Positions 33,851 through 57,591 of a stretch of 64,000 nt of DNA are shown here, piece after piece (the first letter of the stretch is position 1; each line of letters opens with the position of its first letter). The stretch spans positions 1-64,000 of the forward strand of contig NZ_MWPH01000002.1 of NCBI RefSeq assembly GCF_002177135.1, in the 5' to 3' direction. Made by a program: the position numbers and the translations under genes. Source of the DNA: Natronolimnobius baerhuensis. GTDB taxonomy: Archaea; Halobacteriota; Halobacteria; Halobacteriales; Natrialbaceae. Below the pieces are notes generated by a model, which worked only from the letters and a program-made list of their open reading frames with translations, ran no database searches and was not told the origin of the DNA.

Positions 33851-33858
33851 TTATTTTA
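33851..33858 (+). promoter_or_regulatory. TATA box of the thioesterase gene
   Basis: TTATTTTA lies 24-31 bp before the ATG at 33882, the spacing of a leaderless haloarchaeal transcript. Confidence 0.5.
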
Positions 33859-33881
33859 GTTCGGCGGAGACGGTCCTACAG

Positions 33882-34283
33882 ATGAGTTACACACGAACAT
33901 GGACAGTTCGGTTCTCGGATACGGATCCGTTCGGTATCGCCCACTATCCGCGGATGATAGACGCAATTCACGAGACCTCCGATATGTTCATGGAGGATAT
34001 TGGCTGGTCCTTCTGGGAGTTGACCGAGGAACACGAGATTGGGTTACCACTCGTCTCGATGGACTTCGATTTCGAACGGCAGGTACGCGGTGGCGATCAG
34101 GTCCAGATCGAACTGACGACCGATATTGGCACCTCGAGTGTTCAGTTCGTCTATACTGGCACCCACAATGGGTCTGTCGTGTTTACCGGCACGGAGCACC
34201 GGGTCTGCGTTCCTGTTGGCGGCGATCACAGTGTCCCAGTTCCGGACGAGTTACGCGCTGCGCTGAAATCGGCCGCGGAATAA
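33882..34283 (+). CDS. Hotdog-fold acyl-CoA thioesterase (4-hydroxybenzoyl-CoA thioesterase family)
   Basis: A 133-residue single-domain hotdog protein. The N-terminal FSDTDPFGIAHYPRMIDAI matches the active-site segment of 4-hydroxybenzoyl-CoA thioesterases, with Asp15 as the candidate catalytic residue. These enzymes release aromatic acids from CoA. In a cluster with gentisate dioxygenase and an FAD monooxygenase, a natural role would be to release gentisate from gentisyl-CoA, as in the CoA-dependent route to gentisate known in some bacteria; this is inference. It has its own TATA box and precedes the IclR gene on the same strand. Confidence 0.88.
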   Translation: MSYTRTWTVRFSDTDPFGIAHYPRMIDAIHETSDMFMEDIGWSFWELTEEHEIGLPLVSMDFDFERQVRGGDQVQIELTTDIGTSSVQFVYTGTHNGSVVFTGTEHRVCVPVGGDHSVPVPDELRAALKSAAE

Positions 34284-34646
34284 GACCCGTTCTTCCGCCT
34301 CAACCCGTCCGATTGTCTTTGTAACCGCTCCTGGCTAGTTCTGACTCGTGAGAGAAGAGACCTGTACAAAGTGCTGAGTTAGTTACTGCGTTCGCCAATA
34401 GAGAACGTATTGTGAGACAATAACACGGGTAGTCGTCCAGATTTTACTACAGTACTTGTGTAAACGGCCTCGCATCGGATTTCCCGCCTATCAGCTGAAA
34501 ATCACCATCTCAGACCTGTGTAGCAGAGGTTTCTGATAGCCAATCCAGTTGTGTTTCATGAGAGCGAACGTCACTCTGTACATCCCCGTATCATATCAGT
34601 ATTTTTTCGGAAGTGATTATGTAATCGGAGATAAACCATATTTATC
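34284..34646. other. Intergenic region before the first IclR gene
   Basis: No gene is visible in 363 bases. The right end is A/T-rich (CATATCAGTATTTTTTCGG, then ACCATATTTATC directly before the start at 34647) and should contain the IclR promoter. Confidence 0.5.
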
Positions 34647-35414
34647 ATGAAGGAGCGCGCGGCCGATGGACGGGCCATCAAATCGAACGAAACGCTGTTC
34701 GCTATCGTCGAAACACTCACAGAAACCGGCGGTGCGGGCGTCACCGAACTCGCGGAACGGCTCGACCTCGCCAAGAGTACAGTCCACAAGCATCTGGTCA
34801 GTCTCGAGCGACGACGATACGTCGTCAACGACGGGCACCAGTACCGCCTCGGCTTGCAATTTTTCAACACGGGCGTCGCCGTTCGCAACCAGTACGATGT
34901 CTACCACGCGGCGAAAGACCGTATCGAACGCCTGGCAGCCGAGACAGACGAGGCCGTCTGGCTGATCGTCCACGAAAACGGTCGTGGGATCTTCCTCTAC
35001 GGCGTCTCGCACAATGACTCGTTCTCGTTCGATTCGACGATCGGGACGTGGGTACCGCTCCACGCCAACTCGGCCGGAAAAGCCATCCTGGCCCACCTCC
35101 CCGAACAGGAGGTCGTCGAGATCATCGAGCGCCACGGCTTGCCAGCACAAACCGAAAACACGATCACCGACGACGAGACGCTGTTAGACGAACTCGAGGC
35201 CACTCGCGAGCGAGGGTACGCGATGAACTTCCAGGAGGACATGCGTGGCCTCCATGCGATTGCGACGCCCGTAATCGAGGACGGGAGACCGGTTGCAGCG
35301 GTCACGATTGCTGGCGCGGCCAACCGACTCACTGAGGAACGGATCGACGCAGAACTGTGTGAGCCACTCTTCGAAGCAGTCGACGACATCGAACTGCGAC
35401 TCGTCTACGGCTGA
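34647..35414 (+). CDS. IclR-family transcriptional regulator (1)
   Basis: A 255-residue regulator. The N-terminal winged helix (residues 10-70) has FAIVETLTETGGAGVTELAE and LAKSTVHKHLVSLERRRYV as the recognition helix. The C-terminal effector domain (about residues 80-250) has VPLHANSAGKAILAHLP and FQEDMRGLHAIATPV, typical of IclR ligand pockets for small organic acids, often aromatic ones. It is followed by the ADP-forming synthetase subunits at 35511 and likely controls them and the gentisate genes; the effector may be an aromatic acid. No ligand can be named from sequence. Confidence 0.9.
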   Translation: MKERAADGRAIKSNETLFAIVETLTETGGAGVTELAERLDLAKSTVHKHLVSLERRRYVVNDGHQYRLGLQFFNTGVAVRNQYDVYHAAKDRIERLAAETDEAVWLIVHENGRGIFLYGVSHNDSFSFDSTIGTWVPLHANSAGKAILAHLPEQEVVEIIERHGLPAQTENTITDDETLLDELEATRERGYAMNFQEDMRGLHAIATPVIEDGRPVAAVTIAGAANRLTEERIDAELCEPLFEAVDDIELRLVYG

Positions 35415-35510
35415 TCGGACTCGAGGAGGGAACGAGACAATCACGAGACGGAATGAGACGGCGCGTTTACGGGGAAAATGCTTTCACCCAGTTACGACAA
35501 CACCACTGGT

Positions 35511-36899
35511 ATGACTGCGACAAGTCTGTTCGACCCCAGCGGTATCGCCGTCGTCGGGGCGTCGAAGACAGAAGGAAAGATCGGCTACGAGGCAATGCAA
35601 AATACAGCTGCGTTCGACGGACCGGTGTATCCAGTCAACCCGTCGACGTCAGGGACCGTCTGTGGCCGGCAGTTCGTCTCATCAGTGACCGAAATCGACG
35701 GTGACTGTGACCTGGCGCTGCTGTGTGTCCCGGCCCAGGTCGTCCCTGACGTGATCGAAGAGTGTGGCGACGCCGATATCGGTGCGGCCGTCGTCTTCGC
35801 CGGCGGCTTCGCAGAGGCCGGTCCCGATGGAGAACAGTTACAGGACCGACTCGAGGCGGCCGCAGCCGAGGGCGACGTGTCGGTACTCGGACCCAACACG
35901 AGCGGCTTTCTGGTCCCCTCGGCGGAGTTGTATGCGACCTTCGCGACCGATGTCGAGTACGTCCCGCCGGGAAACGTTGCAATCGTTGCCCAGAGCGGTG
36001 GACTCGCCTACTCGCTGGCGTTCCACGCGGAGAACGAGGGCCGGGGTGTCTCCGCGATGGTCGGTCTCGGCAACCGTGCGACCGTCAGCTTCGAGGAGGC
36101 ACTCGAGTACTTCGATTCCGATTCGGAGACTGACGCCATCATGATACACGTCGAGGGGACCGACGACGCCCGCGGGCTGCTCGAGACCTGCCGGGCCATC
36201 GAGACACCGGTCGTCGCCTACAACGTCGGCGAACAGGACGTCGGCGACTTCGCCGAATCGCACACGGGCGCGTTGACCGGCTCCTACGAGCTATACGAGG
36301 CCGGCTTCGCCCAGTACGGCGTCCCAACAGTCCGATCCGTGTCCGAACTGCTCGACGCTGGAACGGCGCTTGCCACCTGTCCGGAACCCGACGGCCCGAA
36401 CGTTGGCGTCGTTACCGCCCAGGCCGGTCCGGGAATCGCCATCACAGATCGCCTGAAGCGAACCGGAGCGACGCTTCCCTCGCTCTCTGCAGCGACCCAA
36501 GACGTCGTCGAGGAGATCCTCCCAGGGATTACCTTCTCCGCAAACCCAGTCGACACCGGCCGGCCGATGCCCGAGTTCGGCGACGTCGTCTCGGCTGTCG
36601 CACGTGACGACAACATCGACATCGTCCTCGTCTACGAGCTGTACGAAGCCGCGCTCGGCTATCCCACCGACGCACTCGAGGAACTCGTTACGACGGTCGA
36701 CAAACCCATCGTCTTCGGGACGGCCGGCCCGAAGTCGGTGATCGACGACGAGGTCGCCGAACTCGAGGCCCTCGGCGTGCCCACGTATCGAACACCCGAG
36801 CGGGCTGCCGACGCCATCGGAGCACTCGTCCAGTATGCAAAGCGAAACTGCCAGCCAGACGCGATGGGCGCAGACGAGGAGGTGACAGCCGATGACTGA
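35511..36899 (+). CDS. ADP-forming acyl-CoA synthetase, alpha (CoA-binding/ligase) subunit
   Basis: A 462-residue subunit of an NDP-forming acyl-CoA synthetase. The CoA-binding Rossmann domain opens with SLFDPSGIAVVGASKTEGKIG and continues through YPVNPS. The phospho-transfer His is His251 in FAESHTGALTGSYELYEAGF. This enzyme class interconverts acyl-CoA + ADP + Pi and acid + ATP + CoA; archaeal isoforms accept acetate, branched or aryl acids. The ATG at 35511 places the glycine-rich motif near the N-terminus. It overlaps the beta-subunit gene by eight bases (ATGACTGA). Context suggests it makes ATP from, or activates, an acid of the aromatic pathway. Confidence 0.9.
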   Translation: MTATSLFDPSGIAVVGASKTEGKIGYEAMQNTAAFDGPVYPVNPSTSGTVCGRQFVSSVTEIDGDCDLALLCVPAQVVPDVIEECGDADIGAAVVFAGGFAEAGPDGEQLQDRLEAAAAEGDVSVLGPNTSGFLVPSAELYATFATDVEYVPPGNVAIVAQSGGLAYSLAFHAENEGRGVSAMVGLGNRATVSFEEALEYFDSDSETDAIMIHVEGTDDARGLLETCRAIETPVVAYNVGEQDVGDFAESHTGALTGSYELYEAGFAQYGVPTVRSVSELLDAGTALATCPEPDGPNVGVVTAQAGPGIAITDRLKRTGATLPSLSAATQDVVEEILPGITFSANPVDTGRPMPEFGDVVSAVARDDNIDIVLVYELYEAALGYPTDALEELVTTVDKPIVFGTAGPKSVIDDEVAELEALGVPTYRTPERAADAIGALVQYAKRNCQPDAMGADEEVTADD

Positions 36900-37593
36900 C
36901 GCAGACCCAATCGAAGCGACGCTTGCGGACGGGCAAACGACGCTAACAGAGGGCGACGCCAAACGGCTGCTCGCCGATTGCGGCCTCTCCTCGCCCGATG
37001 GCGAACTCGTCCAGTCGGCAGAGGCTGCCGTCGACGCAGCCAACCGGTTAGGGTATCCCGTCGTCGCGAAGGTCTCCGCACCGACGGTCCAGCACAAAAG
37101 CGAGTGGGCCGATGGGGCCGGCGTCGCCGTCGGACTCGAGGACGCCGATGCAGTCCGTGAGGCCGCCGACCGCATCCTCGCGGCTGCCGACGACCGCGAC
37201 GTTGCGGCCGGCGTCTACGTCGAAGCGGGTGTCGACCTCGAGGCCGGCCTCGAGGTGATCGTCGGCGGAACCCGCGATCCGTCGTTCGGTCCAACCGTCC
37301 TCGTCGGGCTGGGTGGCGTCGCCGTCGAACTGGTACAGGACACGAGCCACCGCATCGCACCGATTTCGACCGCCGAGGCGCTCGAAATGACGCACGACCT
37401 CGAGGCATCGCCCCTGTTCGACGGCTACCGCGGATCGCCGGCGGTTGACCGGGAGGCAGTCGCCGAGGCCATCGTCGCGGTCGGCGACCTGCTCGTTGAC
37501 CGGGAGTCGATCACCGAGGTGGAGGTCAATCCGCTACTCGTGCGTGCTGACGATGCGGTTGCGCTCGACGCGCTCGTGACACTCGAGGACTGA
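36892..37593 (+). CDS. ADP-forming acyl-CoA synthetase, beta (ATP-grasp) subunit
   Basis: A 233-residue ATP-grasp subunit. LTEGDAKRLLADCGL and GYPVVAKVSAPTVQHKSEWA are the typical N-terminal ATP-grasp elements; GGTRDPSFGPTVLVGLGGVAVE and the C-terminal ITEVEVNPLLV bind metal and nucleotide. It receives the phosphoryl group from His251 of the alpha subunit. The start lies eight bases inside the alpha gene, a tight coupling that supports a two-protein complex. The pair is in the same direction as the IclR gene 97 bp before the alpha subunit. Confidence 0.92.
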   Translation: MTDADPIEATLADGQTTLTEGDAKRLLADCGLSSPDGELVQSAEAAVDAANRLGYPVVAKVSAPTVQHKSEWADGAGVAVGLEDADAVREAADRILAAADDRDVAAGVYVEAGVDLEAGLEVIVGGTRDPSFGPTVLVGLGGVAVELVQDTSHRIAPISTAEALEMTHDLEASPLFDGYRGSPAVDREAVAEAIVAVGDLLVDRESITEVEVNPLLVRADDAVALDALVTLED

Positions 37594-37733: not shown

Positions 37734-38609
37734 TCACTCGTCCTGTTGGCTCTTCTGGACGTTGACGTCTTCGAAGGCAACGTCGCGTTCGGAGACATCG
37801 ACGGTCATCGCGCCAACGCTCTCGATTTCGGCGTCGATGGTGTCGCCGCCGGAGAGTGCGCTGACGCCTTCCGGCGTTCCGGTGGTGATGACGTCGCCGG
37901 CTTCGATGGTCGCGCCGATTGAGGCGTACTCGACGACGTCGGCACAGCTGTAGATCATCCCGCCTGTGTTTTGTTGCTGTTTGGTCTCGCCGTTGAGTTG
38001 CAGTTCCATCTCGAGGTCGTGTGGGTCACCGACCTCGTCGGGGGTGGCGACACAGGGGCCGATGATGGTGAACGTGTCGTAGGATTTGCGGTTCGAGCGG
38101 TCCTGATCACCACGAACGGAGACGTCGAGGAGGATCGTGTAGCCAAGGACGGCGTCCCAGACGTCGTCGGCGTCGATGTCCTTGACGTCCTCGGCCATCA
38201 CGAACGCGAGTTCGATCTCGTGGTCGACGCGGCGGTCGGTAAAGGGGAGTTCGATGCCATCTGCGGGGCCGGCGACGCTCGAGGGTGCTTTGAGGAAGTA
38301 GCCCTTGTCCTCGATGGTGAACCACTCGTCGGTGACGATGTCTGTGTCCGCGAGGGCTTCCTCGACGTGGTTCTCGTAGTTCAGCGGCGCGGCGATCACC
38401 TTGCCCGGTCGGCGAACGGGCGACTCGATGCGAACCTCGTCGCGGTCGTAATCGGGGTCGGCGTCTGCATACTCGCTCGCATCCAGTCCCTTCCGAGCGT
38501 ACTCCTTCAGCGGATCTGCTGTCTCGAGGCCAAGTCGATCAGTGACGTCTACGATGCCATCGTCGGTCAGCAGACCTAGTCGGTCGTCGTCGAATCTGAC
38601 GAATCGCAT
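37734..38609 (-). CDS. Fumarylacetoacetate hydrolase family protein (probable fumaryl-/maleylpyruvate hydrolase)
   Basis: A 291-residue protein of the FAH family. PLNYENHVEEA holds the usual active-site His (His81), and DHEIELAFVMAEDV provides metal-binding Glu131 and Glu133, with Asp162 in ILLDVSVRGDQDRSNRKSYD. The C-terminal GDVITTGTPEGV is the family's strongest motif. Divergent from gentisate 1,2-dioxygenase with a shared 171-bp promoter region, it most likely hydrolyses the ring-cleavage product (fumarylpyruvate or maleylpyruvate) to pyruvate and a C4 acid. No maleylpyruvate isomerase is seen in this window, so direct hydrolysis of maleylpyruvate is possible. Confidence 0.88.
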   Translation of the reverse strand: MRFVRFDDDRLGLLTDDGIVDVTDRLGLETADPLKEYARKGLDASEYADADPDYDRDEVRIESPVRRPGKVIAAPLNYENHVEEALADTDIVTDEWFTIEDKGYFLKAPSSVAGPADGIELPFTDRRVDHEIELAFVMAEDVKDIDADDVWDAVLGYTILLDVSVRGDQDRSNRKSYDTFTIIGPCVATPDEVGDPHDLEMELQLNGETKQQQNTGGMIYSCADVVEYASIGATIEAGDVITTGTPEGVSALSGGDTIDAEIESVGAMTVDVSERDVAFEDVNVQKSQQDE

Positions 38610-38780
38610 ACTACATGCACTGCGAGCCGGCTACATAAATCATCCTCTCTCGGCGATGATCGTGCCGACTGATGGGTGCAGTCTCACTGCATCAGCCATC
38701 GTTCGTGGGCCGAGAGCGCCTGTTCCGGGGGTGTGGGTCCCTCCAACACACTTATAGTATCGTTTGCCGAACACCCATGC
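38610..38780. promoter_or_regulatory. Divergent promoter region between hydrolase and gentisate dioxygenase genes
   Basis: The minus-strand gene has a TATA-like ATTTATGTAG (as read on its strand) at 38631-38640, 22-31 bp before its ATG. The plus-strand dioxygenase gene has CTTATAGTAT at 38751-38760, 21-30 bp before its ATG at 38781. The 110 bp between them is available for a regulator that could switch both genes together. Confidence 0.55.
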
Positions 38781-39860
38781 ATGGTACAGGAAGAGCCCGA
38801 GGACCTGCTAGAGCTAAGCGACGACACCCAATCCCTGCTCGAGCAGAACGACCTCCGTCCGCTCTGGGAAGTAGAAGACGACATGGGAACACTCATCGGC
38901 GATCTCGAGCCGGATATCTGGAAGTGGGAAGATATCCAGGCCGCCATCGATGGTATCGAAAGCGACGTTCCAATCGCCGATCTGCCGCCGGGATTTCAGC
39001 GACGTGTTGCGGTTCCGATCAACGCCAAACACGCGATCTCAAACACGATCTATATCGGCGTCCAGACGGTCTCACCTGGGGAGACCGCACCGTCGCACCG
39101 ACATGCCGCCAGCGCCCTTCGCTTTACAATCGATGGCCACGAGGACATGAAAACGGTCGTCGCCGGCGAAGAGTTCCCGATGAGGGACAACGACCTCGTG
39201 ACGACGCCCCAATGGGAGTGGCACGACCATATCAACGACGGCGACGAGACTGCGGCATGGCTCGATGTCCTCGACCTGCCGCTGTTTCTCGACACCCTGA
39301 ACAACTCCCACGTCTTCGAGAACCACGAACTCGAGCGCCAGCCGGTCACGAAAACTCAGGGCTACTGGGACTCCCAGTACGGGCGCGGTCGTCCGGCCGG
39401 CGAGGAGTCGGACGGCTCGATTCCTGGCCCGTTCGAAGGGAACAGAGAGCCGACGCCGCCCTACCGCTTCGGTTGGAACGAGATGGAAGAGACGCTGCGC
39501 CAGCGTGCAGATAACGACGAGCCGGATCCACACGACGGGTACAGCCTCGCGTACGTCAACCCCGCTACCGGCGAGGCACCCCTGTTCCCGACGATGTCGT
39601 TCCGCGCCCAACTGCTGAACGACGGGCCGACCGACCCGCACTTCCACAACGCCACCGAGGTCTACTTCGTCATCGAGGGTGAGGGCGTAACACACGTTGA
39701 TGGCGAGGCCCTCGAGTGGGGTCAGTGGGACATCTTTGTCGTGCCGCCGGACGCACCACACCACCACGAGCCGGACGACGAGGCGATCTTGCTTGGTATG
39801 ACCGACGAGCCGATCCTCCGGTCGATGAACTTCTACGCCGAGGCCGCCATCGACAAGTAG
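38781..39860 (+). CDS. Gentisate 1,2-dioxygenase
   Basis: A 359-residue bicupin dioxygenase that opens the gentisate ring to maleylpyruvate using Fe(II). The N-terminal cupin holds the iron ligands His106, His108 (APSHRHAASALRF) and His148 (TPQWEWHDH), the exact pattern of known gentisate dioxygenases. The C-terminal cupin keeps DPHFHNATEVYFVIEGEG and APHHHEPDD. The ATG at 38781 was chosen because a TATA box lies just upstream; a longer frame from 38676 lacks family support. Haloarchaea such as Haloferax sp. D1227 and Haloarcula sp. D1 are known to degrade aromatics through gentisate. Confidence 0.93.
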   Translation: MVQEEPEDLLELSDDTQSLLEQNDLRPLWEVEDDMGTLIGDLEPDIWKWEDIQAAIDGIESDVPIADLPPGFQRRVAVPINAKHAISNTIYIGVQTVSPGETAPSHRHAASALRFTIDGHEDMKTVVAGEEFPMRDNDLVTTPQWEWHDHINDGDETAAWLDVLDLPLFLDTLNNSHVFENHELERQPVTKTQGYWDSQYGRGRPAGEESDGSIPGPFEGNREPTPPYRFGWNEMEETLRQRADNDEPDPHDGYSLAYVNPATGEAPLFPTMSFRAQLLNDGPTDPHFHNATEVYFVIEGEGVTHVDGEALEWGQWDIFVVPPDAPHHHEPDDEAILLGMTDEPILRSMNFYAEAAIDK

Positions 39861-40543: not shown

Positions 40544-40711
40544 TGTGGTCAGTCACACACAGTCGTACTGGAACGTTTTGACTGGCACTCCCGACGTGAC
40601 AGGAGCTTTCGCCGACCCGTGTCGATGTGGAGGGCGTACACCCAGCGGTTCCAGCCGTTCTCGGGAGCGCTGCCGTTAGATACTTAGTACCCGTCTGGAA
40701 ACAGGGTGTAC

Positions 40712-42037
40712 ATGGCTACCACTCCCCTCATTGATACTGAGGAGTTCGTCGATGACGCCGAATTCGACGAGGTCGAACGCCTCGAGTACGAACGGGATCT
40801 CTGGCGCGGGCTCTTCGACCAACTGGTTGATGAGTTTCCGGAACCGGCATTTGTCGTCGATGACGGCGGCAGCATTACACACTGGAACGACAAGCACGAA
40901 CCACTGACTGGCATCACTGCTGACGAGACGCTCGGAGAGAACGCGATTGATGTCCTTGGGACCGAGGGCGTCGAAGAAACCCTTGCAGAGAAGATCGTCC
41001 GGACAGAGACGGAGATTCGTGAGGACCACATCCGTTCGGGCGGTCCTGACGACGATAGATGGCACCTCCGTGCCGCTGGGTCGCCGCTACGAACGCCTAC
41101 CGGCGAGGTCGTTGGCGCGTTCGAGTACGTAAGCGTCGTCACGGAACTCGTCGAGCAGCGCAAGGAAGTCAAGCGCGTTCAGGAGGGGATCAGCGAGACG
41201 ATCAACGAGGCCGTCGAGGACCTTCTCGTGGCAACCGAAACGAACGCCGAGACGAACGACGAACTCGAGGCGCTCGTCGATCAGCAGGTCGGGAGCCTCG
41301 AGTCGGTTCAGATGCAGATGGAATCGCTGTCGGCAACTGTTGAGGAGGTCGCCGCCAGTGCTGAGGAAGTCAGTGGCCAAAGCGCCACAGCTGCGGAACT
41401 GGCGGACGAATCGAAGCAAGCGACCGACGAGATCGTCACCTCGGTTGATGACGTTCGGGACGCGGCGGATACGCTCGCCACGACCAGTCGCACACTCGAG
41501 GAGCGAATCGAGGAGATCGACACCATCGTCGACGTGATCGACGGGATCGCCGACGAGACAAATCTACTGGCGCTCAACGCCAACATCCAGGCTGCACAGG
41601 TTGGCAGTGGAGCGGAAGGGTTCAGAGTCGTCGCCAACGAGGTGAAAGCACTCGCAGACCAGTCAAAGGAGGAGGTCGAGACTATCGAACAGATCGTCGA
41701 CGAAGTGCGCTCGCACACGACGGAAACAATCGAGAACGTTGAGACAACACTCGAGCACGTCGATAGAGCGATTGAGCACGCCGAGACCGTTAACAACAAA
41801 CAGTCCGAGATCAAGACCGCCATCGACGAGGCCACGACAGGAAGCGAGGAGATTGCCGATGCGACCGACGAACAGGCCGCGACAGCCGAGGAAGTCGCAA
41901 CGATGCTCAGCAATAGCGTCGAGGGGAGCCAGAACATCGCAGGCGAGATCCAGACGCTCGCCGAAACCAACAGCGAACAGGCCGAGAAGGTACGAAACGT
42001 TCGCCGCGAAGTGCAGGAACTCGAGTCAGAACTGTAA
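40712..42037 (+). CDS. Soluble PAS-type chemotaxis transducer (Htr-like methyl-accepting protein)
   Basis: A 441-residue transducer without membrane helices. A PAS-type sensor (about residues 30-145: FPEPAFVVDDGGSITHWND) is followed by a long coiled-coil signalling domain. The hairpin tip reads ADETNLLALNANIQAAQVG then SGAEGFRVVANEVKAL; the conserved E-A-A-R of standard transducers is Q-A-A-Q, so coupling to CheA/CheW may be altered. Glu/Gln-rich stretches on both sides look like methylation helices. Being cytoplasmic, it senses an internal signal. Its place between the dioxygenase and beta-oxidation genes suggests metabolite sensing for taxis toward the aromatic substrate. Confidence 0.88.
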   Translation: MATTPLIDTEEFVDDAEFDEVERLEYERDLWRGLFDQLVDEFPEPAFVVDDGGSITHWNDKHEPLTGITADETLGENAIDVLGTEGVEETLAEKIVRTETEIREDHIRSGGPDDDRWHLRAAGSPLRTPTGEVVGAFEYVSVVTELVEQRKEVKRVQEGISETINEAVEDLLVATETNAETNDELEALVDQQVGSLESVQMQMESLSATVEEVAASAEEVSGQSATAAELADESKQATDEIVTSVDDVRDAADTLATTSRTLEERIEEIDTIVDVIDGIADETNLLALNANIQAAQVGSGAEGFRVVANEVKALADQSKEEVETIEQIVDEVRSHTTETIENVETTLEHVDRAIEHAETVNNKQSEIKTAIDEATTGSEEIADATDEQAATAEEVATMLSNSVEGSQNIAGEIQTLAETNSEQAEKVRNVRREVQELESEL

Positions 42038-42231: not shown

Positions 42232-42245
42232 ACGCACGCGTGCGT
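42232..42245. promoter_or_regulatory. Perfect palindrome before the beta-oxidation operon
   Basis: ACGCACGCGTGCGT is a perfect 14-bp palindrome directly upstream of the TATA-like GATATATGTG (42255-42264), which itself lies 24-33 bp before the ATG at 42288. A dimer bound here would touch the BRE/TFB site, so it is a good candidate operator for the fatty-acid or aryl-acid operon. Confidence 0.55.
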
Positions 42246-44237: not shown

Positions 44238-44238
44238 G

Positions 44239-48941: not shown

Positions 48942-49799
48942 TCAACCGGGTAGCTCGCGACCGTAGAGTCCCGTTGGTTTGACCAGCAACACAATGATGA
49001 TCACCAGTAGCGCCGTCATCCCGCTGAGTCGCGGCGAAACGGCGGAGATGGTAAACACCTCGAGGAAGCCGATGATGTACGCGGCGATGACGCTCCCGCG
49101 GATCGAGCCGATACCACCGAGGATGACGATAGCGAACGCCAGAACGAGCGGCGTCATCCCCATATCCCACGACGCGGCCCGGAACGATCCGTAGAGCACA
49201 CCGGCGGAGCCGGCGAGGACGCCGGCCAGCGCCCACGTCAGGAGTGTGATGTTGTCGGTCTTGATCCCGACTAGCGCGGCACCCCGCTCGTTCATGCTGG
49301 TGGCGATAATCGCTTGGCCGGTCTTCGTGTAGTTGACGAAGCCGAAGAGGGCGCCGATGAACACCCACGAGAGGACGAATATCAACAGGTTGTTGTACAG
49401 GAACGAGACGCCGGCGATTGACGTCGTACCGCCCAGTAACGATGGAACCGATCTCGGTTCGGAGCCGATAATCGCGAGGAAGCTGTATTCGACGACGAAC
49501 CACGCCAACAGCGTGAGGATCAACACGTTCACCGGATTATCGATGTGTCGGACGAACACCCGGTACAAGACGACGTGGAAGAGCGCTCCCGTGACGGTCG
49601 CCGCCGCTAGTCCAACCCAGACACCGCCGCCGAGACCGGCGACGTACCAGGCGGTAAACGCTCCAATCGTGATCGTCCCGCCGTGTGCCAGGTTTGCCTG
49701 ACCGGCGACGCCGAAGATGAGCGTGAACCCCATCGCGATAAGGGCGTACAACGATCCGAGGACGATCGTATTCGCACCGATGCTAACGATGTCAACCAT
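48942..49799 (-). CDS. livH: Branched-chain-type ABC transporter permease, LivH family
   Basis: A 285-residue inner-membrane permease with about eight helices. It begins DIVSIGANTIVLGSLYALIAMG, followed by GQANLAHGGTI, and has the LGGIGSIRGSVIAAYIIG segment, both typical of LivH. It pairs with the LivM at 51349. In bacteria this family transports branched-chain amino acids and, in many catabolic clusters, aromatic acids and related compounds. It is three bases from the solute-binding protein gene in the same direction. Confidence 0.92.
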   Translation of the reverse strand: MVDIVSIGANTIVLGSLYALIAMGFTLIFGVAGQANLAHGGTITIGAFTAWYVAGLGGGVWVGLAAATVTGALFHVVLYRVFVRHIDNPVNVLILTLLAWFVVEYSFLAIIGSEPRSVPSLLGGTTSIAGVSFLYNNLLIFVLSWVFIGALFGFVNYTKTGQAIIATSMNERGAALVGIKTDNITLLTWALAGVLAGSAGVLYGSFRAASWDMGMTPLVLAFAIVILGGIGSIRGSVIAAYIIGFLEVFTISAVSPRLSGMTALLVIIIVLLVKPTGLYGRELPG

Positions 49800-49802
49800 A
49801 TA

Positions 49803-51092
49803 TTAGAACCACGGCGGCTCTTGGTAGTCCGCAGTGGCCAACCCGTCGGGATGGATGACTTCCTGGATGCCCTCTCCATCCTGTTCTTGCCACTGGAAGT
49901 TGATTCGCTGGAGGTAGCCCTCGCCAAACCGTGCGTCGTGTGGGAACTCGTGGTCTTGGTCGTTGAACTCGATTACACCGCGTGTGCCCTCATAGGACGC
50001 CTCAGCCAGTGCCGGAACGATGTCCTCAGCATCCGTCGTGTCCTCCTGTTCGACGACTTCGGCCCACATCATGAGGCCGTCGTACGTCGCGTACGAGAAG
50101 GCGTCGTTCGGGTAGACATCGAACTCGTCGTTGTATCGTTCCGCGAAGTCAGCTGTCTGATCGGTGAGGTCAGCAGTGTGAACCGCGGGCGCATTACTAA
50201 TCGCAAACTCGTTATCCCCATCGAACGACTCGTAGGACCCCGGGTCGATGATCTGTGAAATCTGGCCGCACATCGCGAACTCACGTTCCTCTTCTCGCCA
50301 CTGGATCATCGCCGGCCCGGCAGTGTGAGCCTGTGCCATGACGACGGCGTCTGCGTCCTCGCTCTCGATGTTGTCGAACAGCGGCGTGAAGTTCTCCGTA
50401 TCGGATGGATATCGTTGGTTGTACACGACCTCGAGGCCAGCGTCCTCGATCATATCAGGAAGGTCGTTCGAGAATGACTGCGTCCACTCGTATTCCTCGG
50501 CGAGGATGGCGATTCGTTCCCAGTCCTCTTCGTCTTGCATGTGTCCAGCGAGGTCTGTGATCGATTCGATCCAGTGGGTGGCGTTCCCGTACGGGCGGAA
50601 CTGATACTTGTACTGCTCGTAGTCGTCTGCGAGCATTTCAGCAATTGTCGGTGAGGTGTGACCGCCGCTCATGTGAATCGTTTGGTGGTCGGCGATATCG
50701 GACATGAGACCGGTCATCACCTCCGTCTGGAACACGCCAGCAGTGATGTCGACGTTGTCGTCGGTGACGAACTCCAGATAGCGATCACTGGCAGTCGAGG
50801 CCGACCCTTGTGTGTTCGAGACGAGCAATTCGACATCCTCGCCGAGGATGCCGCCATCGTCGTTGAGGTCGGAAACAGCCAGTTCAGCAGCCTGCTCCTG
50901 CGCGGTCCCCTGTGGTGCGCTGCCCGGCTCGAATGCCAAGAGGCCGATTGTGATACTGTCACTGCCGCCGTTGTCTGATCCCCCAATACACCCCGCGAGC
51001 GAGACGGTCGCACCCGCCCCCGCGAGTCCGACAAACTGCCGTCTACTCATTCGTCTTACACTATCGGTGCTGTGCACGCGATTACCACGCAT
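49803..51092 (-). CDS. livK: ABC transporter solute-binding lipoprotein, LivK family
   Basis: A 429-residue lipoprotein: Tat motif in MSRRQFVGLAG, lipobox LAGC (about Cys36), then a type I periplasmic-binding fold (ITIGLLAFEPGSA through AAELAVSDLNDDGGILG). The substrate pocket cannot be read directly. It lies three bases before livH in the operon and divergent from livMGF, a complete five-gene importer. Two starts are possible, 51092 and 51050, both leaving the signal intact. Confidence 0.92.
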   Translation of the reverse strand: MRGNRVHSTDSVRRMSRRQFVGLAGAGATVSLAGCIGGSDNGGSDSITIGLLAFEPGSAPQGTAQEQAAELAVSDLNDDGGILGEDVELLVSNTQGSASTASDRYLEFVTDDNVDITAGVFQTEVMTGLMSDIADHQTIHMSGGHTSPTIAEMLADDYEQYKYQFRPYGNATHWIESITDLAGHMQDEEDWERIAILAEEYEWTQSFSNDLPDMIEDAGLEVVYNQRYPSDTENFTPLFDNIESEDADAVVMAQAHTAGPAMIQWREEEREFAMCGQISQIIDPGSYESFDGDNEFAISNAPAVHTADLTDQTADFAERYNDEFDVYPNDAFSYATYDGLMMWAEVVEQEDTTDAEDIVPALAEASYEGTRGVIEFNDQDHEFPHDARFGEGYLQRINFQWQEQDGEGIQEVIHPDGLATADYQEPPWF

Positions 51093-51348: not shown

Positions 51349-52404
51349 ATGACACGGGTAGACCTCGAACCACGATATCTCGTCGGCATCGCATGCGTCA
51401 TTGGGTTGCTTTCAGCGCCCCTGCTCATGCCGATACTCACACTCAGACAGCTCACCGCAGCGTTGTTTCTTGGCATGTTCGCGATGAGTTGGGACTACGT
51501 CTCCGGGTACACGGGACAGCTGAGTTTCGGTCACAGCATGTTCTTTGGGATCGGCGGCTATACTGCGGCAGTCCTCAACCTCGAACTCGGCATCAGTCCG
51601 CTACTGGGGATTTTGATCGGAACAATCGCAGCTGGGATCGCGGGGATCATCGTCGGCTACCCGGCGCTTCGCCTCAAGGGGCCGTATCTGGGGCTTATTA
51701 CGTTGATCGCGCCAATCGTGCTCGTTCAAATCGTTAATATCTTCCCTGGTACCCTCGGTGGTGATGCCGGGCTCCCGAGTCCGGCGGGACTGATTCCAGT
51801 CGACGATACCATCGCTGTCCTCTCGACGATTGGGTTCGAGACGTCGTTTGAACACCAGACGGTCGTCTACTACTATGTCGCGCTCTTCCTGTTTCTGGCC
51901 ATCTACGCGCTCTTCTACGTGTTCACACGCTCGTATATCGGCTCGATCTTCACAGCGATCCGCGAGGATGAGGACGCGGTCCGATCCTCCGGGATCAACG
52001 TTGCGAAGTTCAAGGTGTTCGCGTTTACGATGAGTGGCACCATCGGTGGACTCGCTGGAGCCGCGTTCGTCCACACACCCGTCGGCGAGCCTAGCGTCGG
52101 TGAACTGCTCTATATCGTCGTCAGTATCGAAGTCGTTATCGTCAGCATCCTCGGTGGAATGGGGACGATCACCGGCCCCGCAGTGGCGGGCATCGCCTAC
52201 TACTTCGTCCGAGACGCACTCCAGACCAGCAGTCTGACGATTCCGCTGCTTGACGTCACGGTCGGACATATCTCGATGGTCCTGTTTTTCAGCCTCGCAC
52301 TGCTGATTCTGTTCTTCCTGCCGAAGGGGATCCTTCCATGGCTCGAGGACCTGAGCCACGAACTCGCCGAACGACGAACCGACCAAACTGAGCCAACCTC
52401 TTGA
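51349..52404 (+). CDS. livM: Branched-chain-type ABC transporter permease, LivM family
   Basis: A 351-residue permease with about ten helices. MSWDYVSGYTGQLSFGHSMF is the LivM hallmark and RLKGPYLGLITL follows; the cytoplasmic loop SIFTAIREDEDAVRSSGINV contacts the ATPase. It is followed by the ATPase genes livG and livF, which start 11 bp after its stop and directly adjacent, respectively. Confidence 0.93.
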   Translation: MTRVDLEPRYLVGIACVIGLLSAPLLMPILTLRQLTAALFLGMFAMSWDYVSGYTGQLSFGHSMFFGIGGYTAAVLNLELGISPLLGILIGTIAAGIAGIIVGYPALRLKGPYLGLITLIAPIVLVQIVNIFPGTLGGDAGLPSPAGLIPVDDTIAVLSTIGFETSFEHQTVVYYYVALFLFLAIYALFYVFTRSYIGSIFTAIREDEDAVRSSGINVAKFKVFAFTMSGTIGGLAGAAFVHTPVGEPSVGELLYIVVSIEVVIVSILGGMGTITGPAVAGIAYYFVRDALQTSSLTIPLLDVTVGHISMVLFFSLALLILFFLPKGILPWLEDLSHELAERRTDQTEPTS

Positions 52405-52415
52405 CACACGTACTA

Positions 52416-53192
52416 ATGAGTACTCATTCAACACAGTCGACCGGCGACGAGGGACAGACGGACGACGTTCTCCGACTCGAGGACGTCACGAAACAGTTCG
52501 GGAACGTCACTGCGGTAGATAACCTCTCGTTTGCCGTTCGTGAGGGGGAAATCCTCGGATTCATCGGTCCGAACGGCGCTGGCAAATCGACCACGTTCGA
52601 CTGCGTCTCAGGGACGATGGCACCAACAGACGGAACAATCTACTATCGCGGCGAGGACGTAACCGGACGGCCACAACACGAACTCGTCAAAGCGGGGATC
52701 GCACGGACGTACCAGACGTTCCGACCGCTGAACGATAGAACCGTCCTCGAGAACGTCGCGCTCTCACAGGTTCCCGACTCGCTGTTCTCGCGTTCGGACT
52801 TTCGCGCCGATACTGAAGAACAGACACGGGAAATCTGCGAACGGGTCGGCCTTGGTGACGTCACGTCCCAGATGCCCGATGAACTCCCTCACGCGGGACT
52901 GCTCCGACTCGAGATCGGGCGCGCGCTTGGGACGGAACCGGACCTACTGCTGGTCGATGAGCCGTTTGCCGGGCTCACGACGGAGGAGATCGAACGCACC
53001 GCCGACCTGTTCACCTCGCTTCGTGACGATGGCATGACGCTGGTCGTAATCGATCACAACATGCACGGCCTGCTCGAACTCGTCGACCGCGTCATCGTCA
53101 TCTCGTTCGGCGAGAAGATTGCTGCGGGGACACCGGCAGAGATCCGAAACGATCCGACCGTTCAGGAGGCGTACCTCGGAGGTGAGTTGTAG
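52416..53192 (+). CDS. livG: Branched-chain-type ABC transporter ATPase, LivG family
   Basis: A 258-residue ATPase. Walker A is GPNGAGKST, Walker B LLLVDEPFAGL and the switch His lies in VVIDHNM. The signature loop reads LPHAGLLRLEIGRAL in place of the usual SGGQ/YGQQ-type motif, so ATP contact from this side may be atypical. The ATG at 52416 was chosen over TTG 52401. The stop is immediately followed by the livF start. Confidence 0.92.
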   Translation: MSTHSTQSTGDEGQTDDVLRLEDVTKQFGNVTAVDNLSFAVREGEILGFIGPNGAGKSTTFDCVSGTMAPTDGTIYYRGEDVTGRPQHELVKAGIARTYQTFRPLNDRTVLENVALSQVPDSLFSRSDFRADTEEQTREICERVGLGDVTSQMPDELPHAGLLRLEIGRALGTEPDLLLVDEPFAGLTTEEIERTADLFTSLRDDGMTLVVIDHNMHGLLELVDRVIVISFGEKIAAGTPAEIRNDPTVQEAYLGGEL

Positions 53193-53897
53193 ATGACTGA
53201 CTCACTGCTTTCGGTGTCGGACCTCACGGTTTCGTACGGCAAGGTGACGGCACTCAAGGGTATCGACATCGACGTCAAATCGGGCGAGACCATCGGTGTG
53301 ATCGGTCCAAACGGTGCCGGCAAGTCGACGCTCGTCGATGCGATCAGCGGCTTTCTCGACTACGAGGGCTCGATCACCTATCGCGGCCAGGAGATTGCCG
53401 GGTCGTCGACGCAAACGCTCGTCGAAAACGGCCTGTTCTACTGCACCGAGCGCCGAGACCTGTTTGGCCAGATGAGCGTCGAACAGAACCTCCGACTCGG
53501 CTCGTACCTGAACAATGGCGGCGAGGATGAGCGTCTCGCAGAAGTCTTCGAGCTCTTTCCGCGCTTAGAGGAACGCCGATCTCAGGAAGCCGAAAGCCTG
53601 AGTGGCGGCGAACAGCAGATGCTCTCACTTGGGAGAGGGCTGATGAGCGATCCTGATTTCTTGATTTTGGACGAACCGTCTATCGGGCTCGCTCCAGTCG
53701 TCCTCGAGGACATCAGCGAAGCGCTGACTGCCATCACCGAACTTGACGTGACGGTGTTGCTCTGCGAGCAGAACATCACGTTCGCGCTCGAACACGCCGA
53801 CCGGCTTTACCTCCTCGAGAACGGTGCGGTCCGTCGCTCTGGAGCGACCGAGTCGCTCCAATCCGACGAGTTCGTCGAATCCTATATCGGGGGCTAA
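53193..53897 (+). CDS. livF: Branched-chain-type ABC transporter ATPase, LivF family
   Basis: A 234-residue ATPase with standard motifs: Walker A GPNGAGKST, signature LSGGEQQMLSLGRGL, Walker B FLILDEPSIGLAP and the switch region CEQNITFALEHADR. The family-typical YCTERRDLFGQMSVEQNL is present. It starts directly after the livG stop, so the two ATPases are made together and form the heterodimer of the importer. Confidence 0.94.
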   Translation: MTDSLLSVSDLTVSYGKVTALKGIDIDVKSGETIGVIGPNGAGKSTLVDAISGFLDYEGSITYRGQEIAGSSTQTLVENGLFYCTERRDLFGQMSVEQNLRLGSYLNNGGEDERLAEVFELFPRLEERRSQEAESLSGGEQQMLSLGRGLMSDPDFLILDEPSIGLAPVVLEDISEALTAITELDVTVLLCEQNITFALEHADRLYLLENGAVRRSGATESLQSDEFVESYIGG

Positions 53898-54471: not shown

Positions 54472-55230
54472 ATGACCGACGGCACACCCCCGATGAATTC
54501 GGTGTTGCGTGCGTTCGACGTACTGAACGTACTCTGGGAGGTCAACGGGGCGGGCCCCTCAGAGGTTGCGGCACAGATGGACGTTCCGAAGAGCACGGCC
54601 CACGTCTATTTGCGGACGCTGCGAGAGACCGGCTACGTCGTTAACGACGGTGGCGAGTACCAGCTCAGTCACCGTTTTCTGACCACAGGCTCGCGGATTA
54701 AACACCGAAATAGCCTCTTTCAGGCCGCAGAAGCGAATCTCCAAGAGCTTGCGATGGAAACAGGCGAACTCGTGACGCTCGTGATCGAGGAGAACGGCCG
54801 CTCAGTTATCCTCCACATCGAGTCAGGAAATCGCTCACTCGAGCTTGGCATCTACTCGGGAATGATCACCCCGCTACACTCGAACGCGACAGGGAAGGTC
54901 ATCCTCGCACACCTCTCATCTGATCGGACCGACGAAATCATCGACGAGGGACTCGAGCGACGGACCGAGGAGACAATCACCGACGAGGAGACGCTCCGTG
55001 CGGAACTGGAAACAGTCCGAGAGCAAGGATACGCAGTTGACTGGGACCAGCAGGTCAAAGGAATGGGACTGATCGGCGCGCCGATCAGTATCAACGGTCA
55101 GCTCAAGGGCTCGGCCGGCGTGGTCTGTCCGACCGGACGCATCAAAGACGAAACGTACCAGCACGAACTCCTGCAAAAACTTGAAGGAATGGTTGACTCG
55201 ATCACGATAAAGTACCGATACGGAACGTGA
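54472..55230 (+). CDS. IclR-family transcriptional regulator (2)
   Basis: A 252-residue regulator. The winged helix covers residues 8-65 (AFDVLNVLWEVNGAGPSEVAA, then VPKSTAHVYLRTLRETGYV) and the ligand domain includes TPLHSNATGKVILAHLS and DQQVKGMGLIGAPI. It is about the same length as the first IclR at 34647 but clearly different in sequence, so the island has two regulators, perhaps for the upper (uptake, activation) and lower (gentisate) parts. Likely targets are the adjacent Liv importer and the monooxygenase. Confidence 0.9.
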   Translation: MTDGTPPMNSVLRAFDVLNVLWEVNGAGPSEVAAQMDVPKSTAHVYLRTLRETGYVVNDGGEYQLSHRFLTTGSRIKHRNSLFQAAEANLQELAMETGELVTLVIEENGRSVILHIESGNRSLELGIYSGMITPLHSNATGKVILAHLSSDRTDEIIDEGLERRTEETITDEETLRAELETVREQGYAVDWDQQVKGMGLIGAPISINGQLKGSAGVVCPTGRIKDETYQHELLQKLEGMVDSITIKYRYGT

Positions 55231-55270: not shown

Positions 55271-55678
55271 CTACTCGTCCGGCGCGTCCCCTTCATTCGC
55301 GACGAGGACGGGGCGCTCCGTATTGAGGATCACATCTTGCGTGACGCTCCCGAACAGTGCCTTCCCAGCAGGAGATCGTTTCCGGCCGGCCAAACAGATG
55401 AGATCGACGTCGTGTGTCACCGCGTAGTCACGGATCTCCGTGGCTGGGTCGCCGCTTCGCTCCTCGAGTTGGTAGTCGATTCCGTGGTCGGAAAGGGCGC
55501 GTTTGACGGTCTTCGCTGATCCCAGCTTCTGGATCGTCGCGCCGGACGGATTATCGGTGAAGACGTGGACCACGTGTATTCGCACCGAACTGGAGTCAAC
55601 CGGAATGTCAACGATTGCCTCGACTTGGGAACGGGCGCGCGATTTGGAGTCATCTATCGCGAGCAGTATCTCGTACAT
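55271..55678 (-). CDS. Universal stress protein (UspA family)
   Basis: A 135-residue single UspA domain. YEILLAIDDSKSRARS opens the fold, and GRKRSPAGKALFGSVTQDVI is the ATP-binding glycine loop near the C-terminus, followed by RPVLVANE. The start at 55678 places the first strand at the N-terminus, while the frame is open 16 codons further. It sits between the IclR and monooxygenase genes; a role in the pathway is not implied. Confidence 0.9.
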   Translation of the reverse strand: MYEILLAIDDSKSRARSQVEAIVDIPVDSSSVRIHVVHVFTDNPSGATIQKLGSAKTVKRALSDHGIDYQLEERSGDPATEIRDYAVTHDVDLICLAGRKRSPAGKALFGSVTQDVILNTERPVLVANEGDAPDE

Positions 55679-55842
55679 ATACCACGGTACGTGAACACCT
55701 ATCATAAAACTGCAGGGTCTTCCCATCGCCCGGTAAGAGAGGACACAGTCTCAGACAGATTTTCGAGTTCCCATCGTGCTCCGAAAAACTGCAGTTCGAC
55801 CGCGTTCGAACACGACCGACAAGACCGCGTCAAGCCCAGTCG

Positions 55843-57078
55843 CTAGTAGTTTCCAGTCGAGACGATTGGCGGTGACCCATGGGGCCCGTACGGAGCGTCG
55901 TCAAGCCACTCACCCGCAGTCTCGAACTGGTCTGCCAATGAGGCGGCGACTTCCTTCCGGAGAACGGTTACCGGATCCTCACCTTGGAGATACTCGAGGG
56001 CCTGTCCGGCGGCGTCGAGATTATACTCGGCGGCCGTCTCGCGTCGGGCAGCGTACAACTCAATCTCGTCGCGGGCAACAGCGTCCCGTCGAGCGTCGAG
56101 CGCCACCGAAATCGCTGACGCGGCCTCGTCGGCGTCTGCAACACCGGAGTTCATCCCACGAGCACCAAACGGTGCCAGCAAGTGCGCTGCTTCACCGGCC
56201 AGCAGCACACGTCGGTGGTCGTCGATGAACGAATCCGCCATTACCTGTAAGAAGTAGTACGAGGAGACCCACTGCAACTGATCCTCGTACTCCTCACCCA
56301 TGATATCGCAGACGAATTCACGCATCCGCTCGTCGCTGCTGAGTTCTTCGGGGTCGTCGTCCTCGAGACACTGAATGTCCAATCGCCAGCCGCCAGTGAA
56401 GGGAACGAGCAACACGTTGCGGCCGTCGGCCTCGGGCGCATCGTAGTGAAACACTCGCTCGAGGTCCGGGTGGTCGTCGTCAATCGCTTCGTCCACAACG
56501 TCGGCGATGAGGAAGGCGTTCTCGGACTGATCGCCCTCGAAGTTCGCACCGATTTCCTTCCGAACTGTCGAGCCGCCGCCGTCGGCACCGACGACATACT
56601 CGGTTTCCCACTCCTGCCCGTCGGCGGTTTCGACGCGGACACCGTTGGACGAAGAGTCAACGGTGACGACCTCGGACTCCCAGTGGATGTCGATTCCAAC
56701 GTCCGCAAGCGCATCGAGCATATATTGTTCGGTGGTGACCTGCGGGACACTGGTAAAGTGCGGAATGTCGCCTGACCCACCCGGCGAGTCATACGTTCGG
56801 TTGAACACTTCCGTCCCCTTGTACAACGTTCGTCGGGTTGGCCAGACGAGTCCTTCGTCGACGAGGTCGGTTCCGAGTCCTGGATGGATCCGCTCGAGCG
56901 TCCGGAGCGTCGTCCCGTGGACGTAAATCGCGCGGCTCCCAGAGCGGTCTCGGTCTTCCGGCTCCGCCTCGAGAATCGTCGTTTCGATGCCGCGTGCGTG
57001 CAATGCGAGTGCCGTCGTCATTCCGACAGGTCCAGCACCCGCTACAAGTACCGGCACATTGGCTGTATCACTGCCCAT
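55843..57078 (-). CDS. FAD-dependent aromatic-ring monooxygenase (group A type)
   Basis: A 411-residue flavoprotein hydroxylase. The FAD Rossmann motif is VAGAGPVGM (residues 12-20), the NADPH/FAD motif ADGGGSTVR (165-173) and the second FAD motif GEAAHLLAPFGARGMNSG (295-312). The usual Asp of the GD motif is Glu here. Enzymes of this kind hydroxylate phenolic acids or their CoA esters; with gentisate dioxygenase and a thioesterase in the island it may convert a hydroxybenzoate or hydroxybenzoyl-CoA to gentisate or gentisyl-CoA. A TATA-like AAATATTATAG lies 26-36 bp upstream. Confidence 0.9.
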   Translation of the reverse strand: MGSDTANVPVLVAGAGPVGMTTALALHARGIETTILEAEPEDRDRSGSRAIYVHGTTLRTLERIHPGLGTDLVDEGLVWPTRRTLYKGTEVFNRTYDSPGGSGDIPHFTSVPQVTTEQYMLDALADVGIDIHWESEVVTVDSSSNGVRVETADGQEWETEYVVGADGGGSTVRKEIGANFEGDQSENAFLIADVVDEAIDDDHPDLERVFHYDAPEADGRNVLLVPFTGGWRLDIQCLEDDDPEELSSDERMREFVCDIMGEEYEDQLQWVSSYYFLQVMADSFIDDHRRVLLAGEAAHLLAPFGARGMNSGVADADEAASAISVALDARRDAVARDEIELYAARRETAAEYNLDAAGQALEYLQGEDPVTVLRKEVAASLADQFETAGEWLDDAPYGPHGSPPIVSTGNY

Positions 57079-57591
57079 GAGACGGGGTAACAGGGCACTA
57101 CGCTATAATATTTGTGGTTGTGGTGTACAAACAGCTGTGTTGCTAATCGGAGACGGTATCATAGAAACTAGATTGGAAAAAGCGTGGCCCACTCCAAGTT
57201 TGGTGAGTAGTAGCCCACGGTACCACCGAGACGTTCACAACAGACCCGGCTGGGTGAGTTGCGAACGACACGAAACGTGCACGAGACAGATACACGATCA
57301 GTAGAGCTGTATGATATTTTTCGTAGTATATCAGCAATCACTACTGAAATAGTGCACCGAGTTGGAGGGGATCCAGTGCCGAACCAGTTCCGCTCTGTCA
57401 CTGTGTGGTCGGTACCTGTAACGCGCTGTCTTCGAACCGCGATCTATCCAACTCCGCATAATCGAGGACGGCCACATCGCGTGTGGTTTTCTCACACTCA
57501 AAATCGCTATAGCTGAGTAATCATCACTTTGGATATACTACTACGTAACTATCATTCCACATTTTGTGTCGTGAAAGGTATATGTGTCCGA
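57079..57591. other. Intergenic region between aromatic and glycan loci
   Basis: No gene is visible in 513 bases; the only features are the monooxygenase promoter at its left end and A/T-rich stretches near 57310-57350. Confidence 0.5.
57103..57113 (-). promoter_or_regulatory. TATA box of the FAD monooxygenase gene
   Basis: As read on the minus strand, AAATATTATAG lies about 25-35 bp before the ATG at 57078, the spacing of a leaderless transcript. Confidence 0.55.

Follow-up and report, generated by a model that had tools for sequence, protein, structure and literature searches.

Candidate genes for a CoA-dependent route from aromatic acids to gentisate in a haloarchaeal gene island

The PhgABC system of Brevibacillus laterosporus PHB-7a (2018) reportedly comprises a 4-hydroxybenzoyl-coenzyme A (CoA) ligase, a 1-hydroxylase acting with an NIH shift, in which the acyl-CoA group migrates, and a gentisyl-CoA thioesterase. 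The Streptomyces salicylyl-CoA 5-hydroxylase route to gentisate uses a CoA ligase, a class A flavin hydroxylase that works on the CoA ester, a thioesterase, and gentisate 1,2-dioxygenase (GDO). Here we describe a gene island in the haloarchaeon Natronolimnobius baerhuensis and compare it with these systems. The island lies in the window, meaning the whole stretch of DNA analyzed, 64 kb at the start of contig C2 (NZ_MWPH01000002.1; 1.26 Mb) in a haloarchaeal genome of 3.9 Mb and 8 contigs. Every gene class that an earlier note had claimed for this DNA was found, at or near the place claimed, and taken as a whole the island is best explained, with fair confidence, as a CoA-thioester-level catabolic unit for aromatic acids that would lead from a hydroxycinnamate through gentisate to maleate and pyruvate.

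The physiology of this type of degradation has precedents in both domains. Some Bacillus species turn 4-hydroxybenzoate into gentisate, as cited in PMC10815724, and Haloarcula sp. D1 forms gentisate from 4-hydroxybenzoate with an NIH shift (Fairley 2002, as cited in PMC4005966 and PMC10815724). Haloferax sp. D1227 grows via gentisate on 3-hydroxybenzoate, benzoate, cinnamate, and 3-phenylpropionate (PMC4005966). Within the ADP-forming ligase superfamily, NDP-forming feruloyl-CoA synthetases (FCS1 type) act on aromatic acids (PMC6388921).

Island proteins were assigned to families with Pfam, NCBIfam, and sequence relatives in the PDB, and for the flavin monooxygenase (FMO) also with an AlphaFold model. 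We used GDO, FMO, and the hotdog thioesterase to search 394 haloarchaeal genomes, counting thioesterase homologues at an identity of at least 50%. GDO occurred in 63 genomes (27 of 95 genera) and FMO in 65, 61 of them GDO-positive; all 55 genomes with the thioesterase also had GDO. The expected overlaps were 10 genomes for GDO with FMO (61 observed) and 9 for GDO with the thioesterase (55 observed), giving p < 1e-50 by a hypergeometric calculation that ignores shared ancestry. The genes were also close to each other, with GDO and FMO no more than 20 kb apart on one contig in 48 genomes, and GDO and the thioesterase in 50, including 34 in which this second pair was within 2 kb. The linkage of GDO, FMO, and thioesterase is far beyond chance. 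In the island itself, the thioesterase is near GDO (4.4 kb), as had been claimed, and about 22 kb from the monooxygenase, so that it does not lie beside the latter as the earlier note had it. Comparison of thirty GDO regions of up to 40 kb each (31 with the window) showed that the order acdA-acdB-thioesterase-GDO, in which acdA and acdB encode the subunits of an ADP-forming acyl-CoA ligase (ACD), repeats in several haloarchaeal families. Around it move FMO, the FAH-family hydrolase, IclR, a second AMP-forming, aryl-type ligase (AMPL2), the beta-oxidation block with its AMP-forming ligase (AMPL1), Liv transporters, and the transducer.

Scanning the FMO alignment against named genomes yielded 80 loci, and the nearest bacterial relatives with the same neighbours were in Bacilli, where FMOs 48-51% identical to the island protein sit in operons with a CoA ligase, a thioesterase, and GDO. 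In Geobacillus jurassicus (locus L140), FMO is grouped with a PaaK-like ligase, thioesterase, FAH, and GDO, and also with a Liv importer and IclR genes. In Brevibacillus panacihumi (L141), the genes all lie on a single strand and encode a PcaK-type transporter for aromatic acids, hydroxyacyl-CoA dehydrogenase, enoyl-CoA hydratase, FMO, a thioesterase 31% identical to that of the island, GDO, FAH, thiolase, and AMP ligase. By analogy, we take this operon layout to be that of the CoA-dependent route from 4-hydroxybenzoate to gentisate with NIH shift. Sequence comparison shows that a unit of FMO, thioesterase, and GDO is conserved in archaea and is likewise present in Bacilli.

The supply of CoA esters differs among the 63 GDO genomes. 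AMPL2 is present in 52 of them, 30 with AMPL1 and 22 without it, while 5 have AMPL1 only and 6 have neither. The present genome belongs to the five, its best match to AMPL2 being 33% with no orthologue found, and in this respect it does not have the dedicated AMP-forming hydroxybenzoate-CoA ligase of a Phg-type route. In these five genomes, which have the beta-oxidation block but no AMPL2, the block would deliver the aroyl-CoA directly. Fifteen genomes combine AMPL2, FMO, thioesterase, and GDO with no beta-oxidation ligase, and in these a ligase followed by a thioesterase would be futile unless the ring were altered in between. This, the joint inheritance of FMO, thioesterase, and GDO, and the role of ligase and beta-oxidation block as alternative suppliers of the same aroyl-CoA all argue for hydroxylation of the CoA thioester. 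We consider a CoA-level route to gentisate, as the earlier note had suggested, highly probable.

The alternative that survives best, and that we nevertheless judge unlikely, puts hydrolysis first: the thioesterase, or the ADP-forming pair running in reverse and making ATP, would free 3-hydroxybenzoate from 3-hydroxybenzoyl-CoA, and FMO would be an ordinary 3-hydroxybenzoate 6-hydroxylase of the free acid. FMO does have the fold of class A enzymes that hydroxylate free acids and phenols, the acid-forming direction is possible for ADP-forming ligases (PMC6388921), and the growth substrates given for Haloferax sp. D1227 in PMC4005966 would agree with such a route. However, it would waste ATP in the 15 genomes described above, and no 3-hydroxybenzoate 6-hydroxylase was among the 60 best PDB relatives of FMO listed, where p-hydroxybenzoate hydroxylase (PHBH) and a 3-hydroxybenzoate hydroxylase appeared as weak matches.

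If the CoA ester is the substrate, the position of attack depends on the FMO. This protein has the motifs GxGxxG, DG, and GE (GD-like), and its AlphaFold model (mean pLDDT 90) has as its nearest fold the p-nitrophenol 4-monooxygenase PnpA, an ipso-attacking enzyme. Class A flavin monooxygenases require a phenolic ring. We rejected benzoyl-CoA epoxidase (Box) chemistry, since the BoxB model TIGR03225 has no match in this genome. Both points make cinnamate and 3-phenylpropionate, which would lead to plain benzoyl-CoA, less likely substrates; the phenylpropanoid proposed in the earlier note is retained in the form of p-coumarate or 3-(4-hydroxyphenyl)propionate. Together with the physiology of Haloarcula sp. 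D1 and, weakly, the PnpA-like fold, the need for a phenol suggests that FMO acts on 4-hydroxybenzoyl-CoA with a 1,2-shift, which we regard as reasonably probable. Improbable, and somewhat more so than prior hydrolysis, is a 5-hydroxylation at the CoA level that involves no shift, salicyloyl-CoA or 3-hydroxybenzoyl-CoA being hydroxylated para to the hydroxyl to give gentisyl-CoA, in the manner known for salicylyl-CoA. It needs the same ligase, hydroxylase, thioesterase, and GDO, and gene data are blind to the hydroxyl position; but the beta-oxidation blocks of the islands fit coumarates, the ortho and meta isomers being far rarer than p-coumarate, the salicylyl-CoA 5-hydroxylase model was not among the 25 best NCBIfam matches of FMO, and 4-hydroxybenzoate is the archaeal growth substrate for which a shift is known.

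The side chain would be removed by enzymes whose genes overlap by a few bases, namely the hydratase/dehydrogenase fusion, the thiolase, its OB-fold partner, and AMPL1; acdA and acdB likewise overlap by 8 bp, and these short overlaps point to two co-translated blocks. As had been noted earlier, the beta-oxidation set is complete except for an acyl-CoA dehydrogenase: none was found in the island and six elsewhere in the genome. The lack of a dedicated enzyme suggests a preference for an unsaturated acid, though saturated acids could be handled by housekeeping acyl-CoA dehydrogenases. AMPL1 homologues (identity at least 60%), sought in a sample of 275 genomes, were present in 25 of the 41 genomes with GDO and in 1 of the 234 without it (Fisher test, p = 1.2e-23; the figure of 41 assumes that the sample corresponds to handles G000-G274). 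This near-confinement of AMPL1 to GDO genomes indicates that the block is part of aromatic degradation and not a generic fatty-acid set, which upholds the proposed tie between side-chain beta-oxidation and gentisate. It also makes very improbable the reading in which the block, along with the Liv importer and the ligases, handles fatty or branched acids and lies near a gentisate cluster by chance in a gene-rich replicon. That reading could be argued from AMPL1 and thiolase sequences that are not aromatic-specific, from a Liv binding protein with no informative relative, and from gene orders that differ among genomes; a Brevibacillus operon in which the genes of an analogous block alternate with those of FMO, thioesterase, and GDO speaks further against it. 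Relatives of the thiolase include acetoacetyl-CoA thiolase 6esq and the benzoylsuccinyl-CoA thiolase BbsB (7pxp), the BbsB model giving 168 bits, below its cut-off. An attempt to derive the substrate of AMPL1 from its solved relatives was uninformative. For a hydroxycinnamate as the natural substrate, we see the chances as even.

Combining these elements, a hydroxycinnamate-type acid, p-coumarate at our best guess, would enter through the Liv-type ATP-binding cassette (ABC) importer, perhaps after its extracellular release by the putatively exported BD-FAE-family esterase. AMPL1 would form the CoA ester, and the fusion protein together with the thiolase/OB-fold pair would remove acetyl-CoA to leave 4-hydroxybenzoyl-CoA. 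FMO may then attack C1 of this ester, with the acyl-CoA group moving to C2 (the NIH shift) to give gentisyl-CoA, from which the hotdog thioesterase would release gentisate. GDO is predicted to open gentisate to maleylpyruvate, and the FAH-family enzyme to split the latter into maleate and pyruvate. For the ADP-forming ligase pair, the likeliest role is to activate free hydroxybenzoate, an entry that bypasses beta-oxidation. The two IclR proteins may regulate the island, and the soluble transducer may link it to chemotaxis. More tentatively, at somewhat less than even chances, we propose a widespread modular haloarchaeal NIH-shift route in which 4-hydroxybenzoyl-CoA comes interchangeably from an AMP-forming aryl ligase, from hydroxycinnamate beta-oxidation, or from a two-subunit ADP-forming aryl-CoA ligase. 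We know of no earlier two-subunit ADP-forming ligase dedicated to a ring-hydroxylating CoA pathway.

Several observations weigh against this scheme. None of the island sequences hits a model that would single out a hydroxybenzoyl-CoA hydroxylase or a gentisyl-CoA thioesterase, and in NCBIfam FMO, thioesterase, and GDO all score below cut-off. The FMO model reaches TM-scores of only 0.73-0.80 against PnpA, and the orthology of FMO to PhgB is a lead drawn by analogy from locus context. Among solved structures, AMPL1 is closest to ligases of the long-chain fatty acid and methylthiopropionate types rather than to aryl ligases; archaeal ADP-forming ligases often run in the acid-forming direction; and 8 GDO genomes have no thioesterase at the 50% threshold.

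The enzymes that would form and cleave gentisate retain the expected residues. In the thioesterase, Asp15 belongs to an invariant FSDTDPFGIAHYPR motif and by match offset is placed opposite Asp17, the catalytic residue of the Pseudomonas 4-hydroxybenzoyl-CoA thioesterase 1bvq; a hotdog thioesterase with a catalytic acid, as in a Phg-type route, is thus present. GDO is a bicupin that keeps the HRH and HDH metal-ligand motifs with their histidines, and its closest PDB chains are the GDOs 2d40 (E = 7.5e-46) and 3bu7. It scored 201 bits against the curated TIGR02272 threshold of 442; as the Brevibacillus GDO from the same kind of operon also stayed under it (349 bits), the model looks narrow. The best solved relative of the FAH-family protein is maleylpyruvate hydrolase 6jvv (165 bits; next relative 124), and its gene is divergent from that of GDO, with 66 bp in between. 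No isomerase-like family was recognized among the annotated conserved neighbours, and if the FAH protein is, as seems plausible, a maleylpyruvate hydrolase, an isomerase would be unnecessary. The island encodes no step beyond maleate, and the AMPL2 of 52 of the 63 GDO genomes is absent; to call the island self-contained, as had been done, is too strong.

Table 1. Genes of the island, with the family evidence for each assignment.
Feature	Coordinates	Strand	Evidence
FAD-linked oxidase/Fe-S dehydrogenase (YdiJ-like D-2-hydroxyacid dehydrogenase), island membership uncertain	30499..33651	-	Pfam, NCBIfam
Hotdog (4HBT_2) acyl-CoA thioesterase, proposed gentisyl-CoA thioesterase	33882..34283	+	Pfam 4HBT_2 E 1.5e-11
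IclR-family regulator 1	34647..35414	+	HTH_IclR + IclR_C; orthologue adjoins core in many loci
ADP-forming acyl-CoA ligase alpha (ACD alpha, acdA), candidate aryl-CoA ligase	35478..36899	+	CoA_binding_2 + Succ_CoA_lig
ADP-forming acyl-CoA ligase beta (acdB, ATP-grasp)	36892..37593	+	ATP-grasp_5 E 5.6e-61
FAH-family hydrolase, proposed maleylpyruvate hydrolase	37734..38609	-	FAA_hydrolase E 1.8e-50
Gentisate 1,2-dioxygenase (GDO, bicupin)	38676..39860	+	TIGR02272 E 1.7e-59, below cut-off
PAS + methyl-accepting chemotaxis signalling protein (soluble transducer)	40706..42037	+	PAS, MCPsignal
3-hydroxyacyl-CoA dehydrogenase/enoyl-CoA hydratase fusion	42240..44237	+	3HCDH_N, 3HCDH, ECH_1
SCP-type thiolase, with OB-fold partner proposed aroylacetyl-CoA thiolase	44230..45435	+	Thiolase_N, Thiolase_C_1
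Zn-ribbon/OB-fold (ChsH2/BbsA-like) thiolase partner	45432..45956	+	zf-ChsH2 + OB_ChsH2_C; BbsA model E 7.8e-10, below cut-off
AMP-forming acyl-CoA ligase (AMPL1), proposed hydroxycinnamate-CoA ligase	45953..47575	+	AMP-binding
BD-FAE-family alpha/beta hydrolase, Tat-like signal, possible exported esterase	47694..48767	-	BD-FAE E 1.8e-62
LivH-type permease	48942..49799	-	BPD_transp_2
Liv-type substrate-binding lipoprotein-like protein (SBP)	49803..51092	-	Peripla_BP_6 E 1.7e-44
LivM-type permease	51349..52404	+	BPD_transp_2
LivG-type ATPase	52401..53192	+	ABC_tran + BCA_ABC_TP_C
LivF-type ATPase	53193..53897	+	ABC_tran
IclR-family regulator 2	54472..55230	+	HTH_IclR + IclR_C
Class A flavin monooxygenase (FMO), proposed 4-hydroxybenzoyl-CoA 1-hydroxylase (PhgB-like)	55843..57078	-	FAD_binding_3 E 9.2e-46

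The island genes are spread over several transcription units (Table 1). ACD alpha has an SHTG phosphohistidine motif at residues 260-263, which completes, with its CoA-binding and Succ_CoA_lig domains and the ATP-grasp beta subunit, the features of an ADP-forming ligase. In many haloarchaea the ACD genes are operonic with thioesterase and GDO, and they adjoin FMO in a gammaproteobacterial metagenome-assembled genome (L139, with GDO and FAH), in Kibdelosporangium (L144), and in Nonomuraea (L152). A second ACD-alpha-type CoA-binding protein of 444-480 aa was seen in regions such as G108, G153, G249, G278, G314, and G370, often near the YdiJ-like dehydrogenase or FMO; it mostly has no SHTG motif and may bind CoA without acting as a ligase.

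The five components of the Liv importer (SBP, LivH, LivM, LivG, and LivF) span 48942-53897, and the binding protein has weak PDB relatives only, so that its ligand is not predictable from solved relatives. The earlier note's two IclR regulators and soluble transducer were borne out by HTH_IclR and IclR_C domains and by the PAS-MCP protein having no hydrophobic 19-mer above threshold, that is, no transmembrane-like segment; the transducer cluster was found in 12 of the 31 regions, the window among them. A UspA protein inside the island and the BD-FAE-family esterase had not been mentioned before. The esterase, from a family of feruloyl and acetyl xylan esterases, has a Tat-signal-like N-terminus (RRAVLRGLGIAGASIVL), and both acetyl xylan esterase 6xyc and the carbohydrate esterase 6tkx are among its relatives. 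This exported-looking protein hints at esterified hydroxycinnamates as a source of substrate. Its gene sits between the AMP ligase and the Liv importer and is absent from the region of the sister species (G175).

The YdiJ-like dehydrogenase was near the gentisate core in 23 of the 31 regions and is not diagnostic, because homologues occur in 380 of the 394 genomes. We rejected it as a pathway-specific D-malate dehydrogenase following maleate hydration, given this general distribution and aconitase-family genes that are far from the island; that it oxidizes D-malate if maleate is hydrated is a possible, unproven idea. An open reading frame (ORF) at 33067-33885 (+) was judged spurious, since it has no Pfam match and overlaps the dehydrogenase gene. 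Upstream, positions 22001-30000 have a low GC content (0.47-0.52 against about 0.58-0.60) and contain a TFB gene along with two genes for PAS histidine kinases; this segment may have been acquired separately. Downstream, 57592-62499 looks like a surface-glycan locus adjoining the island, where a 679-aa membrane protein, unmatched in Pfam, neighbours a polysaccharide flippase and a glycosyltransferase.

Among the relatives, a complete version of the island is located on a 364 kb plasmid of Haloarcula marina (NZ_CP100405.1, 250260-287285), and several others are also plasmid-borne. FMO relatives of 55-56% identity in Halobacteriales archaeon YIM A00013 and Actinarchaeum halophilum (L132 and L133) had no other core island gene within 10 kb and may have a different substrate. 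An ORF cluster found in 16 regions (c11) had no Pfam match and is probably a small unknown or chance ORF. On the Haloarcula marina plasmid, public annotation is generic ("cupin domain-containing protein", "FAD-dependent monooxygenase", "thioesterase family protein"), and with key enzymes labelled in this way the pathway is largely invisible in genome records.

The archaeal NIH shift of a carboxyl group has been known physiologically since 2002, and the island supplies concrete candidate genes for it, which form a conserved unit in about one sixth of haloarchaeal genomes and are linked to operons of Bacilli. Naming them makes the reaction testable by deletion and isotope labelling, and suggests a haloarchaeal role in the turnover of plant phenolics in brines. 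The island would share with Haloarcula sp. D1 and Haloferax sp. D1227 the growth of haloarchaea on aromatic acids through gentisate and GDO; those studies established physiology, GDO, and GDO expression, and we found no report of haloarchaeal hydroxylase, thioesterase, or ligase genes in open-access text, though subscription journals may hold one. The Streptomyces salicylyl-CoA route has the same succession of ligase, CoA-ester flavin hydroxylase, thioesterase, and GDO, but starts from an ortho-hydroxylated substrate with no migration, and its hydroxylase model is outside the 25 best NCBIfam matches of the island FMO. FCS1-type synthetases share with ACD alpha the ADP-forming ligase superfamily and the phosphohistidine motif, whereas the island encodes alpha and beta in two genes that have a thioesterase and GDO as operon partners, and the aryl substrate is putative. 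The resemblance to PhgABC lies in the CoA ligase, flavin monooxygenase, thioesterase, and gentisate ring cleavage, with the FMOs of other Brevibacillus and of Geobacillus 48-51% identical to that of the island. In contrast to PhgABC, the archaeon has no dedicated AMP-forming aryl ligase and would obtain aroyl-CoA from beta-oxidation, from a two-subunit ADP-forming ligase, or from both, its genes occupy several transcription units instead of one operon, and a Liv importer and a chemotaxis transducer are added.

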